From Cellvibrio sp. OA-2007 (GTDB lineage Bacteria > Pseudomonadota > Gammaproteobacteria > Pseudomonadales > Cellvibrionaceae): a DNA stretch of 64,000 nucleotides. Location: assembly GCF_000953825.1 (NCBI RefSeq), contig NZ_BBUL01000094.1:62001-126000 (forward strand), written 5' to 3'. Position 1 is the first letter of the stretch; each line of letters begins with the position of its first letter. The notes beneath the pieces are model-generated. The model saw only the letters and a list, made by a program, of their open reading frames with translations, had not been told where the DNA came from and did not search any database. Shown here in pieces: positions 24 to 62,207 of the stretch. Both the position numbers and the translations under genes were made by a program.

Positions 24-38
24 TGTTAACATTTTACA
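24..38. promoter_or_regulatory. Operator-like palindrome TGTTAACATTTTACA
   Basis: This 15-mer is identical to the one at 62193-62207 and one base from the one at 19728-19742. It has dyad symmetry of the form TGTnAAnnnTTnACA. It lies about 310 bases upstream of the TonB receptor start, so it may serve this gene at a distance or an upstream gene outside the window. The binding protein is unknown. Confidence 0.5.
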
Positions 39-150
39 GTTAATCTTTATCTTTCATTACACTCTACCCACCCTCTACACGCGAACGGATACTCCACCCA
101 CATCGCCGCCCTAGCCATGCGCTATCACACCGCTCCACAACCCGACATTT

Positions 151-158
151 TGTTAACA
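151..158. promoter_or_regulatory. Operator-like core TGTTAACA
   Basis: A perfect 8-base palindrome in the context TTTTGTTAACATTTAA, directly before the inverted repeat and promoter of the TonB receptor gene. It matches the core seen before other agar-catabolism genes in the window. Confidence 0.5.
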
Positions 159-195
159 TTTAATGTTTGACATTAAAAAGAAGTAGGCAGATGAT
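159..195 (+). promoter_or_regulatory. Probable sigma-70 promoter overlapped by an inverted repeat
   Basis: A consensus -35 TTGACA lies at 167-172, followed by 17 bases and a GATGAT -10 (4 of 6 matches) at 190-195. The -35 sits inside the perfect inverted repeat TTTAATGTTTGACATTAAA (159-177; 8-base arms, 3-base centre). A protein bound there would block polymerase, so repression of the TonB receptor gene is the simplest reading (inference). Confidence 0.45.
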
Positions 196-344
196 GCCTG
201 CGCAAGGCAAGAAGCGGCAATCAGGCTTTTCAAGCTTTAGCAAGCCGCCCTTACTTTCACATCAACCATAAGGCCCATTTTGATTCGAGCATAAACAAAA
301 CAGGTCAATAAAGAAAAAATGAAAGACCATTAGGAGAGTGTTGT

Positions 345-3092
345 ATGGCGATGATTATTCAAGACCGCTTCAAACTTAAAGTACTTTCAGCTGCAGTGAT
401 CGCAGCATCCAGCATCAATATTTATGCGCAAAATTCCGGCGCTGTCGAAGAAGTTGTAGTAACCGGGATTAGAAGCTCGCTCACCGGCGCAATGGAAACC
501 AAGCGCCAAGCCAGCGGCGTAGTAGATGCCATCAGTGCCGAAGACATAGGTAAATTTCCCGACACTAACCTCGCTGAATCTTTACAACGCATTACCGGTG
601 TATCCATCGACCGGAGCAACAATGAGGGTAACCAAGTGACCGTTCGGGGCTTCGGCCCCAGTTTTAACTTGGTGACTTTAAATGGCCGTCAAATGCCTAA
701 CTCATCCGCTTTGGACAGCACACCAATTTCGCGCAGTTTTAATTTCCGTGAAATTGCAGCAGAAAGTGTTTCCGGCGTAGAGGTGTATAAAACCGGCAAA
801 GCAAACGTAGCCTCAGGTGGATTGGGCGCAACCATTAATTTGAAAACTGCCAAGCCATTTGATTTTAATGAATTGGTTGCTCACGCGAGCGTGAAAGGTG
901 TAATCGAGCCCACTGTTGAAACTGGTGATGAAGTAACACCGGAAATTTCCGGCATGATTAGCAATACCTTTGCCGATGGAAAGTTTGGTGTACTCGCGTC
1001 TTATTCCTACGCCGAACGTAACTTCCATGTCGATCGCATCGGCACCCAAAATGGTTGGAGCCGCGGCTACCCCGGCCAACAAAATCCTGACACCAGCGCT
1101 ATTGATACTGATCGCAACCCCACTAAAGCGACATGGCGCATTCCCACTGTCGATTTGGAAAATGCCAATTACGAACGCACCCGTCAAAATGGCCAACTCG
1201 TATTGCAATTTGCCCCAATCGACAACCTGACCACGACCGTTGATTACACCATGTCGCGCCTTGAAGAAGACGGCGCGATGAACCGTATGAGCTTTTGGTT
1301 TGATAATGTACAAACCGGTAAAGCCGATGCCAATGGCACCATCATTAACCCGGCGCGCAACAACGATGAGTTGAACTTTTGGGCTTGGGAGTATGGTTTT
1401 AACACTGAAAATGATTCCTTCGGTGTAAATGTAGAGTGGGACGTTAACGATCAATTATCTTTCACTCTGGACGCACATGACTCCACATCTCATGCAAACC
1501 CGGGCGCACAACCTGCTGAGCGCATCGCCAATACCAAAAACCCTTTTGGCGCAGTGGATATAGCAGCGGATTTCTCTGGCAAATTGCCCAGCGTTTCCTA
1601 TGACGACTCAGGCTTAGCTGGCGGCGCATATAACAAAGCCAATATTGTCGGCGACCTGTATCAAGAGCGCGGTCATGAACTGGAAAATAATATTCAGCAA
1701 GTTCAATTGCACGGCGTTTGGAAAAATGCAGATGCAGGTGCACTCTCTGCAATTAATTTTGGTCTAGCGCAAACACAAAACACCGTAGATGTAAAAGATA
1801 TTTACAGCGCGAACTTTGCATTAAGCGGTATGGACCTGAGCAATCTAAATCTCAGTTTTGATAAAGGCGACATCGGCTTTGAATATGTACCTGTATTTAG
1901 TGCCAATGAGTTTATTGATTTGGTGTATGCACAAAATCTGAACAACCCAATGAACTACGGCACTAACGGCTTAGAGGAAGATACCAGCGCACTTTATCTA
2001 TCATTTGATTTTGATGCGGAATTTAACCAAATGCCGGTTAAAGCCAATGTTGGCCTGCGCTACGAAGAAACCGATGTTAGCTCCTACACCATCACTAAAC
2101 CAGTGGTAGGTTTTAACTGGGTATCGCCACTGGAGATGTCGAAGATATACGCTGATACCGAACAGTCGGACACACTCAAAGGTAATTACGACAATTTTTT
2201 ACCTAACTTCGATTTAAGTCTAAATGTAACAGATGATCTGGTAACACGCTTCTCGTACAGCAAAACTATTGCGCGCAGCAATATCGATGCAATGTATCCA
2301 GGCACTGACTTGGTTACTCACTTATCAACCGGCCCATTCAAAGCCAATCAAGGTAACCCAGGTTTATTACCATTCGAATCTGAAAATCTCGATTTATCAC
2401 TTGAGTGGTACTACGGTGAAGGCAGTTATGTATCTGGCGGTTACTTCCGCAAGAAAGTGGATAACTTTATTGCTGTAGGCCAAGAAAATCGCATCATCAG
2501 CAGCCCCAATGGCCCGCTGACTAACCCCAGTGCCAATCCGCGCCCCGGTTGCCCGGGCGGCTCAGTGGCCAACCCAACTCCAGCCTGTACATCGCAACCT
2601 GGCGATCAAGCAATTGTCTGGGAAGTTTCCACACCAAAAAACCTGAATGACTCTTTGGTTGATGGTTGGGAATTTAATGTGCAGCACATGTTTGGCGAAT
2701 CAGGCTTCGGCACCATTGTTAACTACACCATGGTAGATAGCGATGACAGTTACGATGTCTACAGTTTGGAAAATGACTTGGCGCTGCAAGGCTTAAGCGA
2801 TTCCGCTAACTTTGTCGGTTTCTACGAGAAAAATGGTTTCCAAATTCGTATTGCCTACAACTGGCGCGACAAGTTCCTCTTGGCTTCTGGTACTGAACCT
2901 ACCTTTACTGCGGCCTATGATCAAATTGATATCAACGCAAGTTATGAAATCAATGAGAATCTATCCGTGTTTATTGAAGGTTTGAATGTAACCGATGAAG
3001 CAACCCATCGTTACGGCCGCTGGACTAATCAAATCAAAGATTACGAGCAATACGGTTCTCGTTACAACGTAGGTGTGCGTGCGAAATTCTAA
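345..3092 (+). CDS. TonB-dependent outer-membrane receptor, probable agaro-oligosaccharide importer
   Basis: A 915-residue outer-membrane receptor. Residues 1-29 form a signal peptide ending at YAQ. A TonB-box-like stretch EEVVVTGIR follows at about 35-43, then a plug domain (ISAEDIGKFPDTNLAESLQ, RGFGP, LNGRQMP) and a long beta-barrel ending in an aromatic residue (RAKF), as usual for BamA-recognised barrels. The family takes up oligosaccharides using TonB/ExbB/ExbD energy. No SusD partner is present, which fits proteobacterial rather than Bacteroidetes loci. The start is supported by AGGAG 8-12 bases upstream. The next genes (halogenase-like, SapC) are frequent companions of this receptor type in Gammaproteobacteria and Caulobacterales. 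The substrate is inferred from the surrounding agarases. Confidence 0.93.
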   Translation: MAMIIQDRFKLKVLSAAVIAASSINIYAQNSGAVEEVVVTGIRSSLTGAMETKRQASGVVDAISAEDIGKFPDTNLAESLQRITGVSIDRSNNEGNQVTVRGFGPSFNLVTLNGRQMPNSSALDSTPISRSFNFREIAAESVSGVEVYKTGKANVASGGLGATINLKTAKPFDFNELVAHASVKGVIEPTVETGDEVTPEISGMISNTFADGKFGVLASYSYAERNFHVDRIGTQNGWSRGYPGQQNPDTSAIDTDRNPTKATWRIPTVDLENANYERTRQNGQLVLQFAPIDNLTTTVDYTMSRLEEDGAMNRMSFWFDNVQTGKADANGTIINPARNNDELNFWAWEYGFNTENDSFGVNVEWDVNDQLSFTLDAHDSTSHANPGAQPAERIANTKNPFGAVDIAADFSGKLPSVSYDDSGLAGGAYNKANIVGDLYQERGHELENNIQQVQLHGVWKNADAGALSAINFGLAQTQNTVDVKDIYSANFALSGMDLSNLNLSFDKGDIGFEYVPVFSANEFIDLVYAQNLNNPMNYGTNGLEEDTSALYLSFDFDAEFNQMPVKANVGLRYEETDVSSYTITKPVVGFNWVSPLEMSKIYADTEQSDTLKGNYDNFLPNFDLSLNVTDDLVTRFSYSKTIARSNIDAMYPGTDLVTHLSTGPFKANQGNPGLLPFESENLDLSLEWYYGEGSYVSGGYFRKKVDNFIAVGQENRIISSPNGPLTNPSANPRPGCPGGSVANPTPACTSQPGDQAIVWEVSTPKNLNDSLVDGWEFNVQHMFGESGFGTIVNYTMVDSDDSYDVYSLENDLALQGLSDSANFVGFYEKNGFQIRIAYNWRDKFLLASGTEPTFTAAYDQIDINASYEINENLSVFIEGLNVTDEATHRYGRWTNQIKDYEQYGSRYNVGVRAKF

Positions 3093-3207: not shown

Positions 3208-4761
3208 ATGACAACAGCCATAAAATCCATTGTCATTGTGGGTGGTGGTGCAGCCGGTTGGATTACCGCTGGCACACTTGCAGCCAAAATACGCAGCCAG
3301 CATAGCGAAGGCATACAAATTAGCCTCGTAGAATCACCCAAAACACCCATCATTGGCGTCGGTGAAGGAACCTGGCCCACTATGCGAAACACCTTAAAAA
3401 AAATGGGTGTACGTGAGACAGATTTCATTCGAGAATGTAATGTCTCCTTTAAACAGGGTGCGAAATTTGTACATTGGTGTACCGGACAAGAAGACGATTT
3501 TTATTATCACCCTTTAGTATTGCCGCAAGGCTTTTCCGAAATTAATCTTGCGCCCCACTGGTTAGCTAATCCACAGAATCAATCTTTCTCCAACGCGGTC
3601 TGCGTGCAGGAAACCCTTTGTGAAGCAGGCTTGGCACCGAAATTAATTACCACACCGGAATATGCCGCCGTTGCAAACTACGCCTACCATCTGGATGCAG
3701 GTGCATTTGCCGAATTTTTGAGAAAACACTGTACAACCAATCTGGGTGTCACCCATTTATTGGCTGATGTTATTCATGTAAATACCGCCAACAATGGCGA
3801 CATAAGCTCAATTACTACAGACACACAAGGCGATATTGCAGGCGATTTATTTATTGACTGCAGTGGATTTAATTCACTATTGCTGGGCAAACACTACGAA
3901 GTGCCGTTTATATCCTGCAAAGATGTTCTTTTTATCGACACAGCCTTGGCAGTCCACCTGCCCTATGAAAACGACCAAAGCCCAATCGCCTCACATACCA
4001 TTTCTACCGCACAGGATTCCGGTTGGATTTGGGATATAGGCCTGCCAACTAGGCGCGGTATAGGCCATGTATTTTCCAGTGCACACACCAGCACAGAGCA
4101 GGCCGAAGAAAAGTTGCATCAATACATCAGGCAACAATCCTCCAATAGCGAGCACCTTTCGGTGCGAAAAATCCCCATAACACCTGGATACAGAGCAAAA
4201 TTTTGGGAGAAAAACTGTGTCGCTGTGGGCTTATCCGCAGGGTTTCTTGAACCGTTGGAAGCATCGGCATTGGTACTAATCGAGATATCCGCCGCGATGA
4301 TTGCCGACCAACTACCAACAACACGCACTGCGATGGACATCATTGCAAAACGATTTAATGAAACTTTTTTATATCGCTGGCAACGCATCATTGATTTTTT
4401 GAAATTGCATTACACCCTCAGCAAACGTGACGACAGTGATTTTTGGCGAGACAATCGATGCTTAAGTAGCATCCCAGAAAGCTTGCAAGAGTTAATGATT
4501 TTGTGGCGCTACCAACCGCCCTGGCATATGGATTTTGATCGCGCGGCTGAGGTATTCCCCGCTGCCAGCTATCAATATTTACTGTACGGAATGGGCTACA
4601 CAACAGAAGCCAGCACTCTAGGTATGTCGCAACACAATCAACAATTAGCGCAAGTGTTATTCAACAAAAATGCAACGTTGGCGCAACAACTCAAAAGCCA
4701 ACTTCCCAGCAACAGAGCGCTTATTAACAAAATAAAAGAATATGGATTACAGCCCGTTTAA
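3208..4761 (+). CDS. Tryptophan-halogenase-family flavoprotein (function unknown)
   Basis: A 517-residue protein of the Trp_halogenase family (PF04820). The N-terminus has the FAD-binding GGGAAGWITAG (12-22). A lysine at 82 (FKQGAKF) aligns with the catalytic lysine of PrnA-type halogenases, and GFLEPLEA is also conserved. The family hallmark WxWxIP reads WIWDIGLP here, so its last part is altered. No flavin reductase gene lies nearby. Members beside TonB receptors and SapC are widespread in polysaccharide-using proteobacteria, and their substrate is unknown. Two paralogues occur at 52425 and 53992. Real halogenation is possible but unproven; another flavin-dependent oxidation, or a role in receptor function, is equally open. 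Confidence 0.8.
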   Translation: MTTAIKSIVIVGGGAAGWITAGTLAAKIRSQHSEGIQISLVESPKTPIIGVGEGTWPTMRNTLKKMGVRETDFIRECNVSFKQGAKFVHWCTGQEDDFYYHPLVLPQGFSEINLAPHWLANPQNQSFSNAVCVQETLCEAGLAPKLITTPEYAAVANYAYHLDAGAFAEFLRKHCTTNLGVTHLLADVIHVNTANNGDISSITTDTQGDIAGDLFIDCSGFNSLLLGKHYEVPFISCKDVLFIDTALAVHLPYENDQSPIASHTISTAQDSGWIWDIGLPTRRGIGHVFSSAHTSTEQAEEKLHQYIRQQSSNSEHLSVRKIPITPGYRAKFWEKNCVAVGLSAGFLEPLEASALVLIEISAAMIADQLPTTRTAMDIIAKRFNETFLYRWQRIIDFLKLHYTLSKRDDSDFWRDNRCLSSIPESLQELMILWRYQPPWHMDFDRAAEVFPAASYQYLLYGMGYTTEASTLGMSQHNQQLAQVLFNKNATLAQQLKSQLPSNRALINKIKEYGLQPV

Positions 4762-4798
4762 TTTGGACTCTATAATCCAATTAGGATAGCGAGAAGAT

Positions 4799-9195: not shown

Positions 9196-9804
9196 TTAGC
9201 GAATATTCGCTTTAAGCGCGGCAGTGGCTTCGCGAATATTGTCTTTGCGCAGTGCATCACTTATCGCTCTATGCTCATTAACACAATCCACTGGCTTGGT
9301 GATACGTTTGTAGTTCATCCGCATGCGCAAAATGATAGGTTGCCACAAGTTAACCAGTTCCTCACCGCCCGCTTTCATCACCAGATAGCGATGAAAGTCC
9401 ATGTCAGCCTTTGTCACTTCTGTGTAATCTTCGTTATCAAATGCATCTTGGAGGCGATCCAGAATTGCATCAATTTCGGCAAAATCTGCCTCCTGCAACT
9501 TGCCTTTCAAGCTTTTTACTGCATGAAGCTCAATCTTGGTGCGGATGTCGATCATCAGCTCCTGCAGTTCTGGTGAGAGCACGCTATTCACCGACACACC
9601 GCAATTATTTTTGGCGACCAATAAACCTTCTTTGGTGAGTTGCAGCAATACATCGCGAACCGGGCCGCGTGAGACACCAAAGCGCTCCGCTAGCGCGACT
9701 TCATTTAATTTAGCATTGGGCGGCATATCGCCAGCAATAATGTCTGATCTGATTTGATCCGCAATTTGATCCCGAACCGGAATGATTTTTTTTGTTTCTT
9801 TCAT
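9196..9804 (-). CDS. GntR-family (FCD/FadR subfamily) transcriptional regulator, probable AHG-catabolism repressor
   Basis: A 202-residue regulator. A winged-helix DNA-binding domain (about 9-72: QIADQIRSDII, LNEVALAERFGVSRGPVRDVL) precedes an FCD effector domain (about 85-200). ATG 9804 is chosen over a TTG at 9825 because it is the first ATG with an upstream AAGG. FCD metal ligands D and H of DMDFHRYL and H of NEHRAI are visible, but the usual last His reads Asn (ALKANIR), so metal binding may be altered. The gene follows the AHG catabolic genes, and FCD regulators usually sense sugar acids, so an AHG-pathway acid is the likely effector. It is the best local candidate for the TGTYAACA sites, though this is unproven. 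Confidence 0.85.
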   Translation of the reverse strand: MKETKKIIPVRDQIADQIRSDIIAGDMPPNAKLNEVALAERFGVSRGPVRDVLLQLTKEGLLVAKNNCGVSVNSVLSPELQELMIDIRTKIELHAVKSLKGKLQEADFAEIDAILDRLQDAFDNEDYTEVTKADMDFHRYLVMKAGGEELVNLWQPIILRMRMNYKRITKPVDCVNEHRAISDALRKDNIREATAALKANIR

Positions 9805-9894
9805 GATTTGGGTGACCTTTCGCAAATAGCCTTATTGGATAGTGATATAAGGCTAAGCTATTTGCAGACATTAGACAATAATCTGAACAAATAA

Positions 9895-14371: not shown

Positions 14372-14395
14372 AGACCTATCCCGATGCATTTGTTT

Positions 14396-14407
14396 ATTGT
14401 TAACAAT
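14396..14407. promoter_or_regulatory. Perfect 12-bp palindrome ATTGTTAACAAT upstream of the cycloisomerase
   Basis: The cleanest copy of the window-wide operator-like motif, 25 bases before the chosen start codon. Its position over the promoter or 5' leader of the AHG operon suggests repression, probably by the co-located GntR protein (inference). Confidence 0.6.
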
Positions 14408-14612
14408 CTACACTCAGGATAAACACTTGTAAAGGAGAAAAGTCTGATAATTTCAAAAGTGGGATACGGAAATGCAATAACGATAAAAAAGCACTAAAGC
14501 GCGAGGTAATACTTACCAATACGGCCAGATGGCGGCACTTTTTGCCTACATCTGGCGAGCGATAAGAGACTAAACAGAAGAGATAAAACAGCGGCGATCA
14601 ATAACCAGGGTT

Positions 14613-16190
14613 TTATTTGACGGCGACAAGTTGACTCTCGATTTCCTCCAAACTTTTCCCTTTGGTTTCCGGCACCATTTTTAGAACAAAAATAGCACCC
14701 AACACGCAAAAGCAGGTATAGATCAAAAATGTGACCGCAACACCCTGAGCCTCTATCTGCCACGGGAACAATGTAGGCACCAATACGCCACCAAAGAGTG
14801 TACAGACCAGCGCACAAGCAGGAATGGCAACACCCCTGATGCGCGTAGGAAATATTTCGGAAAACAAAATCCACATGACTGGGCCTAAGGAAAAGTTAAA
14901 TGCCGCCACAAAACTAATTAATCCAATAAACACCAGCACTCCCTGCATATGCGCAGCCGTATTCAGCAAATCAACCTGCAATGAACCCAGCGCTGCAGAC
15001 CCTAAATGGGTCACTAATGCCCGTTTAAATTCCAGATCACTGGCATACTCAACCCCAAACATAGGAGCCAATAGTGACGTATCAATCCGATCAGCGAAGG
15101 CTGCGACAGATTCTGCGCTCAACATATAAGTCGCACCTGCAAAACAATAAGCCACCACACCCATGCTCACAGCAGCCCAGACCGAACCCCAAAGCAAAAT
15201 AGGACGGCGCCCCATGCGATCAATCATCACCAGCGCCAGGAAGGTAAAAAATAACCCTATAGCACCAACCCATACGGTTTGCTGGAAAGCGCTGGCATCG
15301 CCCCCACCCACCTGCGAAAAAATAAATGGCATATAACCTAAAACAGCATTCATACCGCATAGAGATTGCAACATGGCCGCACCAGCACCAATAAAAAGCG
15401 CGATACGCAACCTGGATTTAAACAACAAACCCAACTGCTCACTTACACTCAGCGAATGCTCAGCACCTTTTAAGTTGTCACAAATCTGATTAAATTGCTG
15501 GGCAACCATCTCAGCAGGTGCAATTTTGGCAATTACCGCTTCCGCCTTATGCTTCTTACCATTCATCACCAACCAACGCGGGCTCTCCGGAATAAAAAAG
15601 AGCAATAAAAACCAGACCAACGCAGGCAAAATTTCTAACCCTAACATCCAACGCCAACTGGTTAACTCGGTTAAACCAATCCAATTTGCCCAAGCGGGCT
15701 GCGAACTAATTACGGTCACTATGTAGAAATTTAATAGCTGCGCGATAAAAATCCCCACCACAATATTCATTTGATTCAGTCCCACCAACTTGCCACGCAA
15801 GTCTGGCGGGGCAATCTCACCAATGTACATTGATGCCAGCGTGAGCGATGCAAAAGCTAAACCGCCCAAAAAGCGCGCAGCAAAAAGCGTCTCAAAACTA
15901 ACGGCAAATGCCGACCCCAACGCGGAAATTAAATACAACGCAGCAATGACTAATAAGGTGTTTTTCCGCCCAAAGCGCTCACAAAAATAACCCGCGCATA
16001 GCAACGCAACAATTGACCCCAACCCCGTAGCACCACCGACAATGGCACCCACTTGAAAGGCCGTTAAACTAAATTCAGCAATAATGTATTTAATGGTGCC
16101 GGAGATCAGGGCTATATCCAGGCCAAATACAAATCCACCCAGAGCCACAATAAAGGAAAAGAAAAATGCGTTTCTATTTGCTCTCTGCAT
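14613..16190 (-). CDS. MFS sugar porter (sugar:H+ symporter family)
   Basis: A 525-residue, 12-helix major-facilitator transporter with sugar-porter signatures: GLDIALISG in helix 1, PESPRW after helix 6, DRMGRRP, and PETKGKSLEEIE after helix 12. The length exceeds that of XylE-type porters because of a large insertion near residues 355-420. It lies in the inner membrane. Placed upstream of and collinear with AHG catabolism, it probably imports AHG, galactose or neoagarobiose. Because GH117 at 62387 lacks a signal peptide, a disaccharide such as neoagarobiose must cross the inner membrane, and this porter is the only inner-membrane sugar carrier seen here. Confidence 0.9.
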   Translation of the reverse strand: MQRANRNAFFFSFIVALGGFVFGLDIALISGTIKYIIAEFSLTAFQVGAIVGGATGLGSIVALLCAGYFCERFGRKNTLLVIAALYLISALGSAFAVSFETLFAARFLGGLAFASLTLASMYIGEIAPPDLRGKLVGLNQMNIVVGIFIAQLLNFYIVTVISSQPAWANWIGLTELTSWRWMLGLEILPALVWFLLLFFIPESPRWLVMNGKKHKAEAVIAKIAPAEMVAQQFNQICDNLKGAEHSLSVSEQLGLLFKSRLRIALFIGAGAAMLQSLCGMNAVLGYMPFIFSQVGGGDASAFQQTVWVGAIGLFFTFLALVMIDRMGRRPILLWGSVWAAVSMGVVAYCFAGATYMLSAESVAAFADRIDTSLLAPMFGVEYASDLEFKRALVTHLGSAALGSLQVDLLNTAAHMQGVLVFIGLISFVAAFNFSLGPVMWILFSEIFPTRIRGVAIPACALVCTLFGGVLVPTLFPWQIEAQGVAVTFLIYTCFCVLGAIFVLKMVPETKGKSLEEIESQLVAVK

Positions 16191-16384
16191 ATCTAATTAC
16201 CACTCAATAGTTATTATTTGAACTGATCGCCCAGCCCATCAATACCGACAAAACCAAGCCTATTGCAAGGCTATCGCCACCTTTCAATAGAACAACTGCA
16301 ATTACTCTGGTGCATCCAGGGCAGATCTGCAGAACACACACCACTTAAATAGAAACCCTGACTCAAGTGTAACACGCGCCATTT

Positions 16385-16394
16385 TTGTTAACAA
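16385..16394. promoter_or_regulatory. Operator-like TTGTTAACAA upstream of GH86
   Basis: A perfect 10-base palindrome in the divergent region between the MFS porter and GH86 genes. A second GTTAAC site is centred 36 bases downstream, so cooperative binding is possible. Confidence 0.55.
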
Positions 16395-16420
16395 TTAAAT
16401 ATATACATTTATATGGAGTA

Positions 16421-16429
16421 CTGTTAACC
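16421..16429. promoter_or_regulatory. Second operator-like site CTGTTAACC upstream of GH86
   Basis: A GTTAAC core with flanks CT and C, the same variant as at 19619-19627. It lies 55 bases before the GH86 start. Confidence 0.4.
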
Positions 16430-18678: not shown

Positions 18679-19596
18679 TTACTGATTATTTTTTACGGAA
18701 ACATCAATTGTCTTGGCAATTTCTGGCAATGGTGCAAAGTAGTATTCGTAGGCAGAATTTAAATTTGCATTTAACGGATTGTTGAGCGAAAACATTCTTC
18801 GCTTACTCAACTGTATAAACTTCAAGCTGGCTAAAAATTTTTTATCCCATAGCGTCTGTAAACTTTTATCCTTATAGGCAGCCAGCAACCCCTGTTCAAT
18901 TCTGGCTTTTAATATCTTATTCTGCACGCTAACGAAAAAAAATCGTGGCAACTTATAATAAAAATAAAAACTGTCATCAATAGTCAGATGCAAACCTGAA
19001 TTGTTATGCAGATACTCATTCATAATCTGGCTAGCCCCCAAACAAAATAAATCCGCCCGGCCAGAGGCAACCATACGAAATGAGCTTTTGTAAGCTGGCA
19101 CCTCGATTGTTTTAAATCCGTTGGCATGCAAAATTTTTGTATCAGCCCACTTAATACCCTGCAAAATACGGTACTGCTTGAGCTCATCAGAAGTCTTCGC
19201 CGTTGCCACTGCTTGGGCCACACCCGGATTGACAAAACATACCCTATAACTCAAAACCCCTAAATCGATGGGAAACTCTATGTAAGTAATAGCAGAGCGC
19301 TCGACCCCATCATAACTATCTTCAATAACTAAATTAGGGTACTCATTACTTGCAATCGCTTGTTTGGCTCTAAGCCGATTAACACCCTTAGGCAAAGGCT
19401 GAAGTTCATAGTCACCATAGCTAGCGCGAGTTTTTTCAAGGACCAAGGTCAGTAGCTCAATCGTATAGTTTTCGTATTGATCTACAGGGGTGCTGGGGAC
19501 ACGATAATTCACAACCTGCATGCCCAAGCAGCCGCAAGAGACCCCCACTCCCGAAAAGAATAGAATTCCGATTATATGGCGCAGATGTAAGCACAC
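18679..19596 (-). CDS. Orphan periplasmic solute-binding-like protein (paralogue of 61308-62177)
   Basis: A 305-residue exported protein. The GTG at 19596 is preferred because GGGAGAGGG lies directly before it and a signal sequence follows (HIIGILFFSGVGVSCGC); a TTG at 19632 has no ribosome site. The mature part resembles type-2 periplasmic solute-binding folds (amino-acid type): a helix with LLTLVLEKTRASYGDYEL, FPIDLGVLSYRVCFV and a C-terminal LWDKKF. It shares many blocks with the protein at 61308 (YGDY, LPKG, FPVDLG/FPIDLG, KIIQG/RILQG, LPKFFF/LPRFFF). No ABC permease or ATPase gene is in the window. The function is unknown; glycan sensing or binding is an inference. Confidence 0.7.
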   Translation of the reverse strand: MCLHLRHIIGILFFSGVGVSCGCLGMQVVNYRVPSTPVDQYENYTIELLTLVLEKTRASYGDYELQPLPKGVNRLRAKQAIASNEYPNLVIEDSYDGVERSAITYIEFPIDLGVLSYRVCFVNPGVAQAVATAKTSDELKQYRILQGIKWADTKILHANGFKTIEVPAYKSSFRMVASGRADLFCLGASQIMNEYLHNNSGLHLTIDDSFYFYYKLPRFFFVSVQNKILKARIEQGLLAAYKDKSLQTLWDKKFLASLKFIQLSKRRMFSLNNPLNANLNSAYEYYFAPLPEIAKTIDVSVKNNQ

Positions 19597-19618
19597 AATC
19601 CCTCTCCCGCTGAATTCG

Positions 19619-19627
19619 CTGTTAACC
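19619..19627. promoter_or_regulatory. Operator-like CTGTTAACC upstream of the orphan binding protein
   Basis: A GTTAAC core 23-31 bases before the GTG start at 19596. Same sequence as at 16421-16429. Confidence 0.4.
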
Positions 19628-19727
19628 GGCAATATCTCTTATACACAAGAGTAGATCATTGTTCACTAAACGGGTAAGCATCGCCTGGGTACTACAATTC
19701 TTTCCAATATGCACCCAGGCCGCATTT

Positions 19728-19765
19728 TGTCAACATTTTACATAAAACCGATACATCTATAGAAT
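19728..19765 (+). promoter_or_regulatory. Operator-overlapped promoter of the KDG kinase gene
   Basis: The operator-like TGTCAACATTTTACA (19728-19742) contains a good -35, TTTACA (19737-19742). It is followed by exactly 17 bases and TAGAAT (19760-19765; 5 of 6 matches to the -10). The kinase ATG follows at 19809. A bound regulator would cover the -35 element. Confidence 0.6.
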
Positions 19766-19808: not shown

Positions 19809-20747
19809 ATGAAACGAATTGTGATTATTGGCGAAAGCATGCTGGAACTAAGCCCCGCTAGCCCAGATTTATGGCAACAATCATTTGCGGGGGATGTGCA
19901 CAGTTTGGCGGTATATTTAAAACGCTGCGCGCCTGAAGCAATACAAGTATCGTTCATGAGTGCGGTCGGGGTAGACGCCGCCAGCACCAAACTAATCTCC
20001 AGCCTGCAGCAAGAGGATATAGATACCTCTTTGATCTATAAGCACCCAAGTAAAACCTTGGGGCTCTATATGATCAACAATACCCCCAGTGGCGAGCGTA
20101 GTTTTCAATATTGGCGCAATGACTCAGCGGCAAAACAGGTCATGCATTTACATCAGGCGCAAGTTTCCGCTGCGACTTTCACAGTTCCCGATCAAGTGTT
20201 TTTTTCCGGCATTTCTCTGGCCATATTAGAAAAAAATAGCCGCACCCTTTTTTGGGATTTTATTCACCACCTGAAAAAAAAGGGCACACAAGTCATTTTT
20301 GACCCTAACTATCGCGCAAAATTATGGGATTCTATTGAGGATTGTAAAGCCCAATACGAACTCGCTTTTCATGCAAGCAATTTGGTTTTACCGAGCTTGG
20401 AGGATTTCACCAATCTTTATCAGCTAGACTCCGCAATCGCGGTTAGCAAATTTTTAAGTGCTTATGATATTGATGAAATTATTATTAAAGATGGCCCTGC
20501 TCCTATTATTTATCAGTCAAGCCAAGAACAATTGGAAGTTGCTATTGAGCCCGTCACTCAGGTTATAGATACAACTGCAGCAGGTGATTCTTTTAATGGC
20601 AGCTATCTAGCGGCGCGCGCACGCGGGCTAAACCCCGAAAATGCCATTCGTTTTGCAGCAAAAATATCTGCACTGGTGATTCAACACAAGGGAGCCATTC
20701 TCAATCGCGAACTCTTTATGCACCACCTCAGCAAATCAACTCATTAA
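19809..20747 (+). CDS. kdgK: PfkB-family kinase, probable 2-keto-3-deoxygluconate kinase
   Basis: A 312-residue ribokinase-fold sugar kinase. The N-terminus IGESMLELSP and FAGDVHSLAVYLKR match KDG kinases. The C-terminal PfkB signature DTTAAGDSFNGSYL carries the catalytic Asp in AAGD. The cytosolic enzyme would phosphorylate 2-keto-3-deoxy-D-gluconate, the end product of the AHG route, to KDPG for the Entner-Doudoroff aldolase, which is not in this window. It is controlled by a promoter containing the shared operator motif, which links it to the AHG operon even though it lies on the other strand. Confidence 0.85.
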   Translation: MKRIVIIGESMLELSPASPDLWQQSFAGDVHSLAVYLKRCAPEAIQVSFMSAVGVDAASTKLISSLQQEDIDTSLIYKHPSKTLGLYMINNTPSGERSFQYWRNDSAAKQVMHLHQAQVSAATFTVPDQVFFSGISLAILEKNSRTLFWDFIHHLKKKGTQVIFDPNYRAKLWDSIEDCKAQYELAFHASNLVLPSLEDFTNLYQLDSAIAVSKFLSAYDIDEIIIKDGPAPIIYQSSQEQLEVAIEPVTQVIDTTAAGDSFNGSYLAARARGLNPENAIRFAAKISALVIQHKGAILNRELFMHHLSKSTH

Positions 20748-22477: not shown

Positions 22478-22630
22478 CTACTCGCGGCGTATCAGCGGCT
22501 CTGTATTAGAGTAGTTAGCCCAATCAAGCTCATGTCAAATTTCTGATATTTTTTCACCTTATCTGTGTATTAGCCGCAAGGTCTCCGCTCTATCATGAAA
22601 CCTATCAATGATCGCTGGAGACTCCCAATC

Positions 22631-23800: not shown

Positions 23801-23851
23801 TGTTTTGTTCAAACAAAGATTGAACCCAACACTTTTACGCGAGAATACAAA

Positions 23852-24160
23852 ATGGCAAAAATTACTTTTATTACCCCCAACAAAGACAGCATCACTTTGG
23901 AAGCAACTTCCGGCAGCGCAATGGAACTGGCGGTTAACAATGGCATTCCAGGTATTGGCGGCGACTGTGGTGGCGTCTGCTCCTGTGCAACTTGCCATGT
24001 ATATGTCCCCGCAGAACATGCCAGTAAATTGAACGCCGCAAGTGAAATCGAAAAAGACATGCTGGAGCTGGACGACAATGTAAATGAGTTCAGCCGCTTG
24101 TGTTGCCAAATTGAAATCACCCCTCAGGTAGATGGCTTGGTACTCGAAGTTGTTGGCTAA
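23852..24160 (+). CDS. 2Fe-2S ferredoxin (putidaredoxin/adrenodoxin type), P450 partner
   Basis: A 102-residue ferredoxin. The cluster ligands fit the adrenodoxin pattern CX5CX2C (within DCGGVCSCATC) plus a distal Cys in RLCCQIE. It follows the P450 stop by 51 bases and precedes the reductase by 53, so it very probably carries electrons from reductase to P450. Cytosolic, no signal peptide. Confidence 0.93.
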   Translation: MAKITFITPNKDSITLEATSGSAMELAVNNGIPGIGGDCGGVCSCATCHVYVPAEHASKLNAASEIEKDMLELDDNVNEFSRLCCQIEITPQVDGLVLEVVG

Positions 24161-24213
24161 TCCAATCAACAACATTCAAACAACCATAAACAATTATTTG
24201 TGGGTTAAAGGCT

Positions 24214-25582: not shown

Positions 25583-25705
25583 CTACCTGCCGCCCCAACC
25601 CCCTCAAAAGCAATAAAATGTTACCTGAGTAGCATTTTATTGCCTAAAAATACCAATTACTTGCCCTACCCCCTGCATGTGGCTTACAGTGTCAGCCCCT
25701 GTCGA

Positions 25706-25715
25706 TTGTCAACAT
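25706..25715. promoter_or_regulatory. Operator-like TTGTCAACAT upstream of the GH16 gene
   Basis: Matches the core TGTYAACA (25707-25714), about 90 bases before the GTG start at 25806. Confidence 0.5.
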
Positions 25716-25805
25716 TTAATTGTTGGTTATTTGTCTCGTGCGGTTTTAACCTCAATGAAGCATTTGGCAGCCGGCGTTAATAATTAATAATACCTGGAGC
25801 CAACT

Positions 25806-41562: not shown

Positions 41563-41699
41563 AACAGAACTCCACGAAATTATTTTTGTACGGGACGGAA
41601 AACGCTTGTTGATATGACGTTAATTGAACTAGGTTAATTATTATTTTTATAAGTCAGGCGACATCTATGTCTAATCAATACAGCACTCAATATATGTTA

Positions 41700-41710
41700 A
41701 TTGTTAACAT
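41700..41710. promoter_or_regulatory. Operator-like ATTGTTAACAT upstream of the GH16 pair
   Basis: The core TGTTAACA lies at 41702-41709, about 140 bases upstream of the GH16 start at 41562 and before the PhoD-like gene's terminator. Confidence 0.5.
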
Positions 41711-41744
41711 TATTCAAGCACAGGAAAATAACCTTTTCGTCTAA

Positions 41745-48993: not shown

Positions 48994-49304
48994 GAATCAC
49001 CTATTTTTAATTTATATATTGAAGTGTTATCAATAACTGCGATTTCTTAAAAAAACCTTATGAAACAGCCAATTCTCTAGTTTTGCAGTCATTGTTTTGT
49101 CAACAATAAACAATATACACCATGCTGGCATTTTATCAACCTTGGTAATCACCTCTTAACAAATCAAGACATGGCTGCATTCCGAATGTCAAATAAATGA
49201 CATTCCTGGTTTTATTGGTGCCATTTATGACAAGCGCATTTTGCTACATTGAGTCGAGTCAGTGCGGATATCTATTGCGGCGCACCAATAATAACGCGCC
49301 AAAC
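48994..49304 (-). promoter_or_regulatory. Control region of the second GH50 gene
   Basis: 311 non-coding bases between the GH50 and AraC genes. They hold the operator-like TGTCAACAAT (49098-49107) and an inverted repeat GAATGTCA/TGACATTC with 6-base spacer (49184-49205), followed by a related ATTTATGACA. The inverted repeat's AATGT...ACATT arms resemble those at 159-177. Confidence 0.5.
49098..49107. promoter_or_regulatory. Operator-like TGTCAACAAT upstream of GH50
   Basis: The core TGTCAACA lies at 49098-49105, about 105 bases before the GH50 start at 48993. The downstream flank AAACA is a weaker match to the extended motif. Confidence 0.5.
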
Positions 49305-50177: not shown

Positions 50178-50350
50178 TTTCCAGTAATCAATATTCTTGG
50201 AACAAAGTTGATTATATTTTTAATGCGATAGCAATATTTTTTTAGCTGTGGCCGATTATCAACAATGAAAATCAAACTAATTCTAGTCTATATATTTCGT
50301 TTTTAACCCATTCAACACCTACTTCACGAACATTACTGGAGCTAACTTTT
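50178..50350. promoter_or_regulatory. Divergent promoter region, AraC / alcohol dehydrogenase
   Basis: 173 bases shared by two divergent genes. A degenerate operator-like ATTATCAACAAT lies at 50255-50266. GGAG precedes the dehydrogenase ATG by 10 bases. Confidence 0.4.
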
Positions 50351-52424: not shown

Positions 52425-53945
52425 ATGTCGATACGCGAATCAAAAAAAATCATTGTATTAGGTGGCGGAACCGCTGGCTGGGTGACGGGCGCTACTTTAT
52501 CTAAAAATTGGGAAACACATCGCTATCAGGTTGTAGTAGTTGATACAGCAGAAATTCCAACCATAGGCGTTGGGGAAGCAAGTATTCCCACTATTTACGA
52601 TCTCTTAAATTATCTAGAAATAAGCGATCGGGATCTGGTTAAGCACTGCCAAGCAACATTTAAATATGGCATCCAATTTGAAAACTGGTCCCGTCCCGGC
52701 GAACGTTATATGCATGGTTTTGGCAACATGGGGCACAACCTAGGGCAGGCTGAGTTTTTTAAAATTTGGTTAAGTACCGCAAGCTATTTTAAAAAACCTG
52801 ACCTCACACCCTTTATCCCTTCCGCGGTTGCAGCTTATTCAGATAAGTTTTCTCGCGGTTCAAAAGCGCCCGAAAACACAAACGGCCTCTTCTACCCTTT
52901 AAGCAACCTACTTTACGCACTCCATTTTGATGCATCTCTTCTGGCTCGATTACTTCGAGAAAAAGCGTTACACAATGGCGCAACCCACATTTCCAAGCAC
53001 ATAGTAAAAGTCGAAACAGATGAGAACGGTATATCCGCACTTATTGCGGAGGATGGCGAAACACTCAGCGCCGATTTATATGTAGACTGCTCGGGAATGC
53101 ATGGCGCCCTAAATAAACAAGTATTAAAAGCAAACTTTGATAACTGGCAAGCATACTTGCCTTGTGATACTGCAATTGCAGTACAAACAACATTGGATAA
53201 AGCGCCTCGTTTGTACACTCGCTCAATTGCCCACGCAGCCGGATGGCGCTGGGAAATCCAGCTTCAGAACCGCACCGGTAACGGCATTGTCTATTGCTCA
53301 AAACACATGGATTACGACACAGCAAAACAACATCTATTAGAGGGTGCTGAAGGCGAGCCGTTAACTACACCACGCAAAATTGAATTCACCACCGGACGAT
53401 TGTCATCGCCTTGGATGCTCAACAGCGTGGCCATAGGTTTATCCGCAGGATTTTTAGAGCCATTAGAATCCACCAGCATTCATTTAATTTGCGCCTATGC
53501 GAGAAAATTGCGCGATAGTATCGACAATAACGAATTAAATGCGGTGGGCAGAGATAAATTTAATCAGTCCTGGCGCGCAGAGACCGAGGGAGTGCGCGAT
53601 TTTTTAATGGTGCATTACCTCTGCAATCAACGCGATGAGGACTCGTTCTGGCAAGAGCGAAAGTCAGGGCCTCGTCCGGAATCACTTGCTCAGTTACTCG
53701 ATGAGCTTTCTAAAACTGGCTGGATATCACCACCGGAAGCGTCCATTTTTGGCACCGATAGTTGGCTAGAAGTATTAATAGGTCAAAAATTTTTCCTCAA
53801 TTATGAAAAATTTTCTATGCCTGCCGACAAAGCCCCCCACTATATTCAATTTTTGCAGAATGTATCCTACGCCATTAAAAATGAGGTGAATAAAATTCCT
53901 GATTCGCATCAAAGCATATTGGGGACTCTGCGCGCAGAAATATAA
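52425..53945 (+). CDS. Tryptophan-halogenase-family flavoprotein (second paralogue)
   Basis: A 506-residue PF04820 protein. FAD motif GGGTAGW (13-19). K80 (ATFKYGIQF) matches the catalytic lysine position. The WxWxIP motif reads WRWEIQ, and GFLEPLES is intact. The HGFGNMGHN stretch is specific. No flavin reductase is adjacent. It converges on the third paralogue at 53992, and both lie beside the large TonB receptor. Confidence 0.8.
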   Translation: MSIRESKKIIVLGGGTAGWVTGATLSKNWETHRYQVVVVDTAEIPTIGVGEASIPTIYDLLNYLEISDRDLVKHCQATFKYGIQFENWSRPGERYMHGFGNMGHNLGQAEFFKIWLSTASYFKKPDLTPFIPSAVAAYSDKFSRGSKAPENTNGLFYPLSNLLYALHFDASLLARLLREKALHNGATHISKHIVKVETDENGISALIAEDGETLSADLYVDCSGMHGALNKQVLKANFDNWQAYLPCDTAIAVQTTLDKAPRLYTRSIAHAAGWRWEIQLQNRTGNGIVYCSKHMDYDTAKQHLLEGAEGEPLTTPRKIEFTTGRLSSPWMLNSVAIGLSAGFLEPLESTSIHLICAYARKLRDSIDNNELNAVGRDKFNQSWRAETEGVRDFLMVHYLCNQRDEDSFWQERKSGPRPESLAQLLDELSKTGWISPPEASIFGTDSWLEVLIGQKFFLNYEKFSMPADKAPHYIQFLQNVSYAIKNEVNKIPDSHQSILGTLRAEI

Positions 53946-53991: not shown

Positions 53992-55587
53992 CTAGGATGA
54001 AACAGCGAAGCTAAGGCCAAGCAAACGCGCAAGAGCCTGCTCTTTACTCGCTTTATTGCGACCTTCTACAGAAAATGGACTCGCACCAGTGCGCAGAATA
54101 TTTAAGGCTTCTACTTGCGGCATATGATTTAACGCGCACCGCTCAAAAAAATCGACAATTGAATCCAACGGTACTTTAGCCAAATCATCCGGGCTGGCTT
54201 GCACCAGTTGATGCTCGGGAGGAAATATTCCCATGCCACTTAATAAGTACACCCATGAATTCACTTTGTAGTGACGATTAAGCCCCGTGCTTTGCAGCGC
54301 CTCACTAATATCCGCACCACTCAACCAAGCTTGCAACACCAGTTTAAGGCGATTAGATGCCGCTGCTGAATTGTGGCGGCAGGCGCGCCAGTAAGGTGTA
54401 TCCTCACGGTCAGACGTTAAATAATGTGTATGTATATAGTCCTTCACATTGTCAAACGCTTCTGCGATTTCTGAATTCAGTTGCTCTGCGTATTGATTGG
54501 TATATGCACCCGCTTTATACAATTTAACAAACCTAACAAGCGTTAATTGCACCAACGCCAATGCCGTTGCTTCTAATGGCTCTAAAAATCCTTGCGACAA
54601 ACCAACTGCCAGGGAATTTTTATTCCACATAGTTTTGGCTCGCCCAACCCGCATTTTTAAGTGGCGCACTTCGCCTTCGCCATTATTCATATTCAGATGC
54701 GCGCGCAGTTCCGCTTCTGCTTCTGCTTCGCTACAAAAATCTGAACTATACACATAGCCATTTCCCACACGATTTTGCAGAGGAATTTCCCAAGCCCAAC
54801 CATTATTTAATGCGGTAGCTACAGTTTGCGTTGAAATAACCTCTTCCACTGGAGTAGCCAATGTGACCGCACGATCATTAAATAAAACATCGCTATAAGA
54901 AATAAAAGGAGTGCCGAGTGTTTTGCCAGTAATAAGCGATGCAAAGCCCGTGCAATCAACAAAAAAATCGCCCTCAAGTATTGCCCCACCCTTGAACGTC
55001 AGGTGTGCAATATCACCTTCTGCATTTAATGCAATGTTTTCGACATGCGCACTTTTCCATACCACTCCCCGCTCAATGGCTTTTTCTTTTAAGAAAGAAC
55101 CTAACATAGCTGCATTAAAATGATAGCCATATTGAACTTCAAATGGAAAAGCGTATGGGGTAATCGGGCACAGAGAATTCGCAGCCAAGTAGCTTGCATA
55201 ACTAAACAAATTAGGATGCGCATGCACACGTTTACCTGCACGTCGCAATTCGGAATTAAATATAAGCGCTTTAATATGGTCGCGATCAAAATGAGAAAAA
55301 AATGGATGAAAATATTCTTCAAACCCATTTCTTGTTGACCAACCCCTAAATGATATACCCGATTTATAGGTTGCCTGACAAGCTGACATCCATTCGCTTT
55401 CACTGATGCCTATAGCATCCATAAACGCTTTTAATGCCGGTGTAGAGCCTTCACCTACACCGATAATTCCGGTAGCGGCAGATTCAACAAGCGTAATCGT
55501 ACAATCCTGAAACGCATGTTGGAATAACATTGCCGTCATCCAACCCGCCGTTCCACCGCCCACTATGACAAGTCGTTTCGATGACAA
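53992..55587 (-). CDS. Tryptophan-halogenase-family flavoprotein (third paralogue)
   Basis: A 531-residue PF04820 protein with FAD motif GGGTAGW, K75 (ATYKSGISF) at the catalytic-lysine position, canonical WAWEIP (the only one of the three with the full WxWxIP), and GFLEPLEA. It follows the TonB receptor at 55773 on the same strand behind a terminator. Its motif completeness makes it the best of the three for a true halogenase test. Confidence 0.82.
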   Translation of the reverse strand: MSSKRLVIVGGGTAGWMTAMLFQHAFQDCTITLVESAATGIIGVGEGSTPALKAFMDAIGISESEWMSACQATYKSGISFRGWSTRNGFEEYFHPFFSHFDRDHIKALIFNSELRRAGKRVHAHPNLFSYASYLAANSLCPITPYAFPFEVQYGYHFNAAMLGSFLKEKAIERGVVWKSAHVENIALNAEGDIAHLTFKGGAILEGDFFVDCTGFASLITGKTLGTPFISYSDVLFNDRAVTLATPVEEVISTQTVATALNNGWAWEIPLQNRVGNGYVYSSDFCSEAEAEAELRAHLNMNNGEGEVRHLKMRVGRAKTMWNKNSLAVGLSQGFLEPLEATALALVQLTLVRFVKLYKAGAYTNQYAEQLNSEIAEAFDNVKDYIHTHYLTSDREDTPYWRACRHNSAAASNRLKLVLQAWLSGADISEALQSTGLNRHYKVNSWVYLLSGMGIFPPEHQLVQASPDDLAKVPLDSIVDFFERCALNHMPQVEALNILRTGASPFSVEGRNKASKEQALARLLGLSFAVSS

Positions 55588-59720: not shown

Positions 59721-59760
59721 TTATTGTCAATAATCAATTGTAGATTGTTAGCAATTTACA
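59721..59760. promoter_or_regulatory. Operator-like sites upstream of the large TonB receptor gene
   Basis: A near copy TGTTAGCAATTTACA (59746-59760) differs from the extended motif at one core position. A TTATTGTCAATAA palindrome at 59721-59733 carries TTGACA on the minus strand, a possible -35 with a weak -10 16 bases on. The start codon is 112 bases away. Confidence 0.45.
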
Positions 59761-59835: not shown

Positions 59836-59859
59836 AAAAAAGGGAGGCACAGGCCTCCC
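59836..59859 (-). terminator. Terminator after galE
   Basis: A perfect 7-bp stem GGGAGGC/GCCTCCC with a 4-base loop. On the minus strand six T follow. Confidence 0.88.
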
Positions 59860-59889
59860 AAAGAACACAACAGCAAGCACAGAGAAAAC

Positions 59890-60924: not shown

Positions 60925-60955
60925 TAATTTCTCTCACCACCAACTCGATTAAACA

Positions 60956-61291
60956 CTAGTTGACACAGACAATTTCAAATACATTGCCATCAGCATCTGT
61001 ATAAAATAAATTCCCACTAATAGATTCAACCTGAAATAATTCTCTTTCTTTAATCAAACTATCAAGCACTGTAAAAATATCTTTTTCTGGCATGCGCAAT
61101 CGAATCCGTTTTTTAGCTTCAGCATCAACTCCTTGAACGCACACCAATTTCAACGAGGCGCCAGCTAAGCTTATAAAAAAGCTACTACTTCCAAACGGAT
61201 TCTTTAACTCCATCACATGAGCCGAAAATAGCCGCTGATAACGCATGGCGGACTCAAGAGGATTTTTCACATTAACTGACTGCCACCGCAT
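60956..61291 (-). CDS. Small VOC (glyoxalase/bleomycin-resistance) superfamily protein
   Basis: A 111-residue protein. ATG 61291 has GGAG 8 bases upstream; a TTG at 61303 is in frame. The pattern fits one half of a VOC fold: an N-terminal beta-alpha-beta (NPLESAMRYQRLF) and a C-terminal FYTDADGNVFEIV, the usual VOC ending that carries a metal-ligand Glu. The first ligand position is not obvious. It sits between the orphan solute-binding-like gene (16-base gap) and galE (31-base gap). Function unknown; a sugar-binding or isomerase role would fit the context only loosely. Confidence 0.65.
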   Translation of the reverse strand: MRWQSVNVKNPLESAMRYQRLFSAHVMELKNPFGSSSFFISLAGASLKLVCVQGVDAEAKKRIRLRMPEKDIFTVLDSLIKERELFQVESISGNLFYTDADGNVFEIVCVN

Positions 61292-61307
61292 GACCCGCTC
61301 CAAAAAA

Positions 61308-62177
61308 CTATAGCAACTCAGGGTTTATGACAAACTGCTCATAATTTTTACCCAGCGAATCAATTAACGGGTTTTCAAAGCGAAATATTTTCCGCTTATG
61401 CAGTGCAGAAAACCTCACCGCCTCACCGTAGTACTCATCCCACAGCTTTCTAACGGCACCAGATTCATAGGTAATATGAAGCCCCTTTTCAATACGATCA
61501 GCCAAGGCTCTATTTTTTTTATTCAAGAAAAAGAATTTTGGTAGAGGATAATAAATACACACATGTTGGTCATAGTTTAAATATTTAACATCCTGGTTTT
61601 TCTTCCACTCCCGCTCCAATTCATTTGCACCAATCAAAAATATATCGCCACGATCATTAGCAGCCATATAGAACAAACCTTTGATATTGCCACCCTCAAC
61701 AACTTTAAACCCAATTTTCTTGAGTATTTCGCTATCTAACCATCCACGCCCTTGAATAATTTTAAGCTGTTGCAATTCAGCCAAGGTTTCAATTTTTTCT
61801 AGCTTTCGTTTAGACTCGGGCGACACAAAGCCAATGCGATAGCCGGTCACACCCAAATCTACGGGAAACTCTACCCCATGTAATTTTTCAACAATCTCAT
61901 TGGAAGCCGAATCTTTATAGACAAAATTTTCAAACTGATTATCTTCAGCATAAACCCGCAGGCGCGAGTAAGTGGGCACATCGCCTTTAGGCAAATCCCT
62001 AATTTCATAGTCTCCGTATTCCGCCTTGGTGGCATCCAGCGCGAGGCGCAACAGGTGGTATTCGTAGATTTCCTCTTTTGGCGCTATCTCCCCCGACCCA
62101 AAGGTAATAACGGTAGGAGCCGCAGCAAATACATTTAGCGCAAACATGGCGATACTTAATATTATTATACGCAACAT
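61308..62177 (-). CDS. Orphan periplasmic solute-binding-like protein (paralogue of 18679-19596)
   Basis: A 289-residue exported protein. ATG 62177 is chosen over the far ATG at 62222 because AGGTGG precedes it and a signal peptide follows (about 1-18, NVFAAA). The operator at 62193-62207 then lies just upstream instead of inside the gene. The mature region resembles type-2 periplasmic binding folds (EYHLLRLALDATKAEYGDYEI, FPVDLGVTGYRIGFV, GADELEREW-type helix, LPKFFFL, LWDEYYG). Blocks are shared with the paralogue. No ABC transporter or sensor partner gene is nearby. Function unknown. Confidence 0.72.
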   Translation of the reverse strand: MLRIIILSIAMFALNVFAAAPTVITFGSGEIAPKEEIYEYHLLRLALDATKAEYGDYEIRDLPKGDVPTYSRLRVYAEDNQFENFVYKDSASNEIVEKLHGVEFPVDLGVTGYRIGFVSPESKRKLEKIETLAELQQLKIIQGRGWLDSEILKKIGFKVVEGGNIKGLFYMAANDRGDIFLIGANELEREWKKNQDVKYLNYDQHVCIYYPLPKFFFLNKKNRALADRIEKGLHITYESGAVRKLWDEYYGEAVRFSALHKRKIFRFENPLIDSLGKNYEQFVINPELL

Positions 62178-62192
62178 ACACCACCTGTTAAT

Positions 62193-62207
62193 TGTTAACA
62201 TTTTACA
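62193..62207. promoter_or_regulatory. Operator-like TGTTAACATTTTACA upstream of the second orphan binding protein
   Basis: Identical to 24-38, located 16-30 bases before the start codon at 62177. Its position supports the shorter gene start. Confidence 0.55.

Follow-up and report, generated by a model that had tools for sequence, protein, structure and literature searches.

A short palindromic word recurs through an agar-degradation gene cluster, which raises the question of what protein reads it and what is controlled thereby. The initial annotation had proposed one regulon, perhaps under the GntR/FCD protein encoded at 9196. The motif, its placement and its linkage to this protein were computed directly. 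Judged from sequence comparison, one local repressor very probably binds this word, and the pair of protein and site recurs beside similar genes in other bacteria.

The repeated motif and the predicted operator

The window, that is, the whole 64-kb stretch of DNA analysed here (C4:62001-126000 of a 4.6-Mb draft genome), contains 17 strand matches of TGTYAACA at 10 places when both strands are searched. Shuffled windows contained 5.36 on average and 14 at most, and 0 of 100 shuffles reached 17. The motif is real and beyond chance. Its previously reported positions were found again (24, 151, 14398, 16386, 19728, 25707, 41702, 49098 and 62193), with some starts shifted by 1-2 bases. Every copy had been said to lie between genes; this holds for the copies then listed and not for a tenth, at 24273, which lies inside a reductase gene (24214-25473), has no matching flanks and falls outside the best 40 matches to the matrix described below (lowest score, 8.0). 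The sites at 16386 and 62193 overlap ORFs only via TTG starts, and in-frame ATG codons were located by eye at 16484 and 62177, respectively.

After the sites had been lined up, the 8-mer was replaced as the unit: the full predicted operator is a 22-bp dyad, TGTnnATTGT-YR-ACAATnnACA. We built a matrix (PWM) from 12 own sites, 10 in the window and two further ones just past its right edge. These sites score 15.9-29.9, with 13.7 for the best other place in 163 kb of the same contig. When each was left out of training, 10 of the 12 still scored at least 15, the exceptions being 151 (10.5) and 16386 (14.4). Own-genome DNA elsewhere (505 kb) contains one place of at least 15, at 15.4. Background frequencies differ slightly between scans, so that the score of one place varies a little from scan to scan. 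Four near copies had also been proposed. The one at 59746 proved to be a good site (25.8; 22.4 when left out of training) and that at 50255 a weak one (8.4), while those at 16421 and 19619 were dropped because they are absent from the best 40 matches.

The predicted operators, the units behind them and the proposed regulator are as follows (left-out, score when left out of training; kept, bases conserved in sister genomes).

17..38: operator 1, before TonB receptor 345-3092; PWM 19.3, left-out 15.6; 20/22 kept in the one sister that aligned
144..165: operator 2, the weakest, before TonB receptor 345-3092; PWM 15.9, left-out 10.5; 20/22 kept in the one sister that aligned
9196..9807, minus strand: gene of the GntR/FCD (VanR-type) regulator proposed to own the operator, last in the AHG operon
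14391..14412: operator before AHG operon 14389-9196 (MR_MLE, ADH, SDR, aldehyde dehydrogenase, GntR); PWM 29.2; 21-22/22 kept in three sisters
16379..16400: operator between MFS transporter 14613-16190 (minus strand) and a porphyranase/GH86-type gene (plus strand, ATG 16484); PWM 18.0, left-out 14.4; 21-22/22 kept in three sisters
19721..19742: operator before PfkB-type sugar kinase 19809-20747, divergent from 18679-19632; PWM 22.0; 18-20/22 kept in three sisters
25700..25721: operator before GH16-domain gene 25806-29105; PWM 20.5; 21/22 kept in the two sisters that aligned
41695..41716: operator before CBM6 proteins 41562-38258; PWM 27.2; 22/22 kept in three sisters
49091..49112: operator before GH50-type gene 48993-46591 and downstream genes; PWM 20.1; 18-21/22 kept in three sisters
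59739..59760: operator before TonB receptor 59609-55773; PWM 25.8; 22/22 kept in three sisters, as against 62-69 of 82-90 flanking bases
62186..62207: operator before 62177-59890 (304-aa ORF of no known family with in-frame ATG at 62177, 115-aa ORF, GalE-like); PWM 29.9; 19-22/22 kept in three sisters
Right flank, outside the window: site before galT-galK-DGOK-GH43/117-like genes
Right flank: site between IclR gene C4:132300-133070 and FG-GAP/UnbV gene C4:133222-136344

Across three sister genomes, 94.1% of operator bases are kept versus 85.4% of those in the 40-bp flanks (31 of 36 possible comparisons aligned). A genome-wide comparison with background, suggested in the initial annotation as a check, bore out the exact form of the motif and not its relaxed form. 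The exact form WTTGTYAACAWTNNACA has 7 matches in the genome, all at C4:62022-128852, as against 0 for its reversed control; TTGTYAACAWTTTACA, with up to 2 mismatches, has 19 genome-wide matches, no better than the 21 of its reversed control, and 13 of the 19 lie at C4:62023-133111. A match with one mismatch at C22:7702, within an ORF with HlyD-like domains, was taken as chance.

Pfam searches of the window identified TonB receptors, the MR_MLE/ADH/SDR/aldehyde dehydrogenase/GntR operon, a porphyranase-domain protein, the PfkB kinase, one GH16-domain protein, several CBM6 proteins and two proteins with an agarase CBM-like domain. For AHG dehydrogenase, cycloisomerase, GH86, GH50, GH117 and, on the CBM6 proteins, GH16, the names are assumed ones, in part those of the initial annotation. 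For the proteins of 41562-38258, Pfam gives CBM6 and no GH16 match; their GH16-type assignment follows from size and the earlier reading. Cellvibrio sp. KY-GH-1 has a 77-kb agarase cluster (PMC10163192), and two CBM6 ORFs here, with 476 and 596 aa, differ in length by no more than one residue from its GH16A (477) and GH16B (597). From these lengths, and from the Cellvibrionaceae and Microbulbifer and kin that make up the family, the genome probably belongs to an agar-degrading Cellvibrio.

Several other features of the cluster were noted. Two proteins encoded immediately after good operators, the 304-aa ORF (61308-62177) and the FG-GAP/UnbV protein (C4:133222-136344), may have new agar-related functions. 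Three tryptophan-halogenase-like genes are present (3208-4761, 52425-53945 and 53992-55587), one of them adjoining SapC. A cytochrome P450, short ORFs and a ferredoxin-reductase-like gene stand together at 22595-25473, presumably a set like that for oxidative demethylation of porphyran 6-O-methyl-galactose. A protein with TPR repeats and multihaem-cytochrome matches is encoded inside the cluster (35925-38162), and a 1510-aa ORF (C4:57350-61882) borders it on the left.

The candidate regulators within and beside the cluster

The protein encoded at 9196-9807 has an N-terminal GntR winged helix (PF00392, 57.6 bits; cut-off, 27) and a C-terminal FCD domain (PF07729, 61.1 bits; cut-off, 24.3), the latter all-helical in the AF2 model (pLDDT 87.2). 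A Foldseek search of the PDB returned GntR/FCD structures as top matches, with McbR, PmiR, AlkR and Atu1419 among the similar folds. Residues D135, H139 and H179 of the FCD pocket are present in 80 of 80 homologues (collected as described below). Among the nearer homologues, 53 of 54 have Asn201 where a third His is expected, and among the distant ones 21 of 26 do. This position aligns with a His of TM0439, which we take to be the third metal ligand there. The three-His metal site is thus incomplete in this protein, with Asn201 at the third His, and the change hints, at the level of the alignment, at an altered effector or metal site. Metal-binding FCD proteins have three His plus Asp/Asn ligands (PMC7797058). 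In one sister genome, a second FCD gene (G019:C2:892621-892989) lies about 3 kb from gntR.

To relate the motif to its possible owners, we used 144 genomes of the family, whose members are Cellvibrionaceae or Microbulbifer and kin. An orthologue of the GntR/FCD protein occurs in 29 of them at 59-100% identity, the next match being 32% identical. The exact motif occurs in 34 genomes: 27 of the 29 with the GntR protein and 7 of the 115 without it (Fisher p 1.5e-20). Of 123 exact-motif matches, 116 are in GntR-bearing genomes; the seven GntR-less genomes with the motif have one match each, none having two or more. Two genomes, G041 and G043, have the protein and lack the exact motif; the 20 kb surrounding gntR contain two matrix sites of lower score in G041 (15.4 and 19.4) and none in G043. 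The co-occurrence is confounded with possession of the agar cluster, as a correlation with the motif, though a looser one, exists for the IclR and AraC genes too.

These other regulators were therefore weighed as owners. The IclR-type protein encoded just outside the window (C4:132300-133070) might bind the motif, as a site at the 3′ side of its gene begins 20 bp downstream, and 22 of the 24 genomes bearing IclR have the motif. However, all 24 genomes with strong IclR matches also have GntR, and five genomes with GntR and no IclR match at E ≤ 1e-30 still contain 1, 2, 3, 7 and 8 exact motifs. IclR is itself behind a matrix site in three loci and so looks like a target. We regard its ownership of the motif as very unlikely. 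Both AraC-type genes (34407 and 49305) lie within the cluster, and the motif is found in 13 of 15 genomes bearing AraC 49305 and in 4 of 4 bearing AraC 34407. Nevertheless, AraC 34407 is present in just 4 of the 144 genomes, and 14 genomes that have GntR and 2-8 exact motifs lack a strong orthologue of AraC 49305. These 14 include all 11 Microbulbifer (g22) genomes with GntR, for which the AraC matches listed are only 28-31% identical. The chance that either AraC protein owns the motif appears next to negligible. For IclR and AraC alike, the motif is not confined to genomes with the regulator; there are motif-rich genomes without them.

Sites in relatives and in other phyla

A genome collection was scanned with an alignment of 28 of the 29 orthologues (L012 was excluded for a stop codon), and 80 of 266 relatives were kept. 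They include Microbulbifer, Gilvimarinus, Colwellia, Pseudoalteromonas, Shewanella, Paraglaciecola, Catenovulum, Hirschia and Sphingomonas and, farther away, Planctomycetota, Chloroflexota, Verrucomicrobiota and Spirochaetota. A matrix match of at least 15 lies within 300 bp upstream of gntR in 45 of the 80 loci: 29 of 49 with regulators at least 56% identical to ours, 2 of 5 at 46-55% and 14 of 26 at 42% or less. In the same three groups, the region downstream of gntR gave 5, 1 and 1 loci, other 311-bp windows had such a match in 3.4%, 3.3% and 1.2% of cases, and matrices with permuted columns gave means of 0.42, 0.10 and 0.08 loci. The absence of a site within 300 bp of gntR in 35 of the 80 loci is partly explained by the fact that gntR can sit inside an operon, as it does here. 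One of the two seeds for the distant-homologue scan was the recognition helix, which is why the distant homologues share it; they are not a random sample. The gntR-locus result, a sequence association, ties the recognition helix to the predicted operator and is not a sampling of all FCD proteins.

As a control, we used FCD paralogues (30 loci of the 86 FCD matches listed), none of which has a match of at least 15, the best being 12.7. This result, and the weaker tracking of the motif by IclR and both AraC genes, favour the GntR/FCD protein as the owner. The proposal of one regulon under this protein likewise gains support from the co-occurrence in 144 genomes and from predicted sites before gntR in relatives and distant homologues.

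We also surveyed the regulon in 88 loci, 14 duplicates having been removed from 102 candidates; 20 of the 88 had been picked for holding pattern matches. They contain 263 matrix sites, two G059 sites being counted twice (in L059 and L225). Behind 228 of the 263 sites, a homologue of a cluster gene starts within -60 to 450 bp, as against 19.8% for random positions; the other 35 have no such homologue behind them. None of the 263 sites falls inside coding alignments versus 59.3% of random positions, a test that covers only genes homologous to the cluster. The commonest targets, counted by loci, are gntR (44), MR_MLE (30), GH50 type b (25) and the MFS transporter (20), followed by TonB receptor type 2 (20), DGOK (13), the PfkB kinase (13, two of them overlapping) and TonB receptor type 1 (11). 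A homologue of the first halogenase-like gene was observed behind a matrix site in five other loci (L059, L107, L128, L136 and L149), including three Arenicella MAGs and one Sphingomonas. A second, 35%-identical GntR gene of Catenovulum agarivorans DS-2 also lies behind a matrix site (L139:17605) and is possibly a cross-regulated paralogue.

Six Chloroflexota loci (L158, L161-L164 and L175) combine gntR, ADH, SDR and MR_MLE with ABC transporter parts and several GH43/117-like genes. Their regulators are 37-41% identical to the GntR/FCD protein; in L163, identities to the window proteins are 50% for MR_MLE, 53% for ADH, 68% for SDR and 37% for the GH43/117-like protein. A site of at least 15 lies between MR_MLE and the divergent permease in all six loci; four of the six have one before a GH43/117-like gene, and four have one before a solute-binding protein. 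In two Pirellulaceae loci (L156 and L166), gntR is accompanied by ADH, SDR, aldehyde dehydrogenase and MR_MLE. A site scoring 17.3 stands about 91 bp upstream of gntR in L166; L156 has a GH117-like gene and no site that reaches 15. The chances seem about even that regulator and four-box operator form a self-contained 3,6-anhydro-galactose switch that moved or persisted with the pathway across phyla.

Another arrangement was observed in 12 of the 26 distant loci (L151-L154, L157, L159, L160, L167, L168 and L170-L172), where gntR is followed by a PSCyt/PSD1-type gene, in 11 of the 12 also with DUF1501. The regulators of these loci are 36-42% identical kin, and 11 of the 12 have a site of at least 14.8 near gntR (L160 scores 13.5). 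Given the genes that follow gntR there, the switch probably serves something else in these loci, possibly a second use.

The occurrence of sites before homologous gntR genes in other phyla also bears on a LacI-type regulator encoded elsewhere in the genome, which the initial annotation had allowed as binding the motif. Palindromic AT-rich operators are also common for LacI proteins, which speaks for this reading. Against it stand these sites in other phyla and the failure of Pfam to identify any LacI protein among 49 ORFs scanned (window and right flank). In addition, the ATTGT/ACAAT halves and their 2-bp GT-AC spacing fit the FadR-subfamily consensus, a TKGT/ACMA palindrome with 2-3 bp spacing, in the accessible part of PMC4494728. 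From these sites and the 49 ORFs covered, we consider a LacI owner very unlikely.

A proposed repression model and known systems

We consider it highly likely, from these sequence patterns, that the motif is the operator of the GntR/FCD protein and that this protein is a VanR-type FCD repressor acting on the promoters of an agar/3,6-anhydrogalactose regulon. In this model, whose binding, repression and inducer we infer, a dimer would recognise the core ATTGT-YR-ACAAT, and its binding would be strengthened by outer TGT/ACA half-sites, which are weaker and lie 9-11 bp from the dyad centre. About eleven units, serving the import, cleavage and metabolism of agar, would have operators on or beside their promoters, where the bound repressor would block RNA polymerase. 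During agar breakdown, an acidic intermediate of the 3,6-anhydro-L-galactose branch would bind the FCD domain and release the repressor; 3,6-anhydrogalactonate and 2-keto-3-deoxygalactonate are the candidates, on account of the operon's pathway and the carboxylate ligands of FadR-subfamily proteins (PMC4494728, in part). As gntR ends an operon under this control, the loop would be self-regulated.

To assess the outer half-sites independently, we chose sites by the inner core alone, without the outer columns. A TGT/ACA box at 9-11 bp was present in 59 of 140 agar-type sites versus 6 of 140 when shifted by 3, and in 18 of 27 sites of distant loci versus 0 of 27 when shifted by 3 and 0 of 10 control sites. 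Each inner half-site recurs 7 bp farther out as the outer one (ACAnT-n2-ACAnT), and this repetition hints that more than one dimer may sit on each operator.

Among 146 oriented sites, -35-like words peak at -36 to -32 from the operator centre (16 versus 5-6 in adjoining bins) and -10-like words at +19 to +23 (13 versus a mean of 4.7). Peaks inside the operator (e.g. bins -11, -6, 4 and 9) were left unused because they consist at least partly of operator letters. The predicted operator thus tends to cover the -10 or the -35, which fits steric repression. Some FCD proteins activate, and the GntR protein could own the motif and yet act as an activator or dual regulator; this precedent, and the wide variation of the site-to-gene distance within the allowed -60 to 450 bp, speak for such a role. 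However, the promoter-word peaks set the operators over -35 or -10 elements, as is typical of steric repression, and AlkR (PMC12042122) and Atu1419 (PMC7797058) are repressors in the accessible parts of their descriptions. We therefore think an activating or dual role rather unlikely and keep to the repressor model.

The predicted regulator, its precise operator, the target list and a testable inducer would make the control of agar use testable in a cultivable degrader. The operator could serve as a genome-mining tag for agar and anhydrogalactose genes, including the 304-aa, UnbV-type and halogenase-like proteins, and the regulator/operator pair offers a sensor part for seaweed bioconversion.

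A search of titles and abstract beginnings found no description of an agar-related GntR/FCD regulator or operator. In their accessible parts, the papers on agar and carrageenan examined for regulators give enzymes, transporters and at most a regulator family, and no operator. The following comparisons likewise draw on parts of the cited papers. In the carrageenan locus of Pseudoalteromonas carrageenovora, a GntR annotated as galactonate operon repressor lies beside dauABCD (PMC6262041). A GntR-type gene beside anhydrogalactose catabolic genes has thus been annotated already; unlike the present case, it is an annotation only, for 3,6-anhydro-D-galactose, with no operator given in that part of the source. 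The Zobellia carrageenan regulon resembles ours in having one regulator for a red-algal galactan utilisation locus, whereas its CgrA is an AraC-type positive regulator from Bacteroidota serving another polymer (PMC5698469).

Closer likenesses are found in the protein family. AlkR, footprinted on ATTGTCAGACAAT over -10 regions, shares the fold (Foldseek TM 0.81, rank 24 by E-value) and the same ATTGT/ACAAT halves; it differs in having 3 bp rather than 2 between GT and AC, in its 21% identity, and in governing alkane oxidation and being released by long-chain acyl-CoA (PMC12042122). Atu1419 of Agrobacterium fabrum, a VanR-group protein with a metal-binding FCD domain, is alike in fold, in its palindrome ATGTATACAT with 2 bp between GT and AC, and in an operator that overlaps the -10 (PMC7797058). 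It differs in pathway and in having three metal histidines where our protein has Asn as the third; it is described as a tetramer with looping (PMC7797058). The GntR-family regulons of Suvorova et al. 2015 contain no agar or anhydrogalactose regulon by a term search of the accessible main text, and they share with ours the TKGT/ACMA palindrome with 2-3 bp spacing and a weaker extra half-site 7-12 nt from the centre (PMC4494728). As a kind, FCD repressors that read operators like these are well known; what is unusual here is the breadth.
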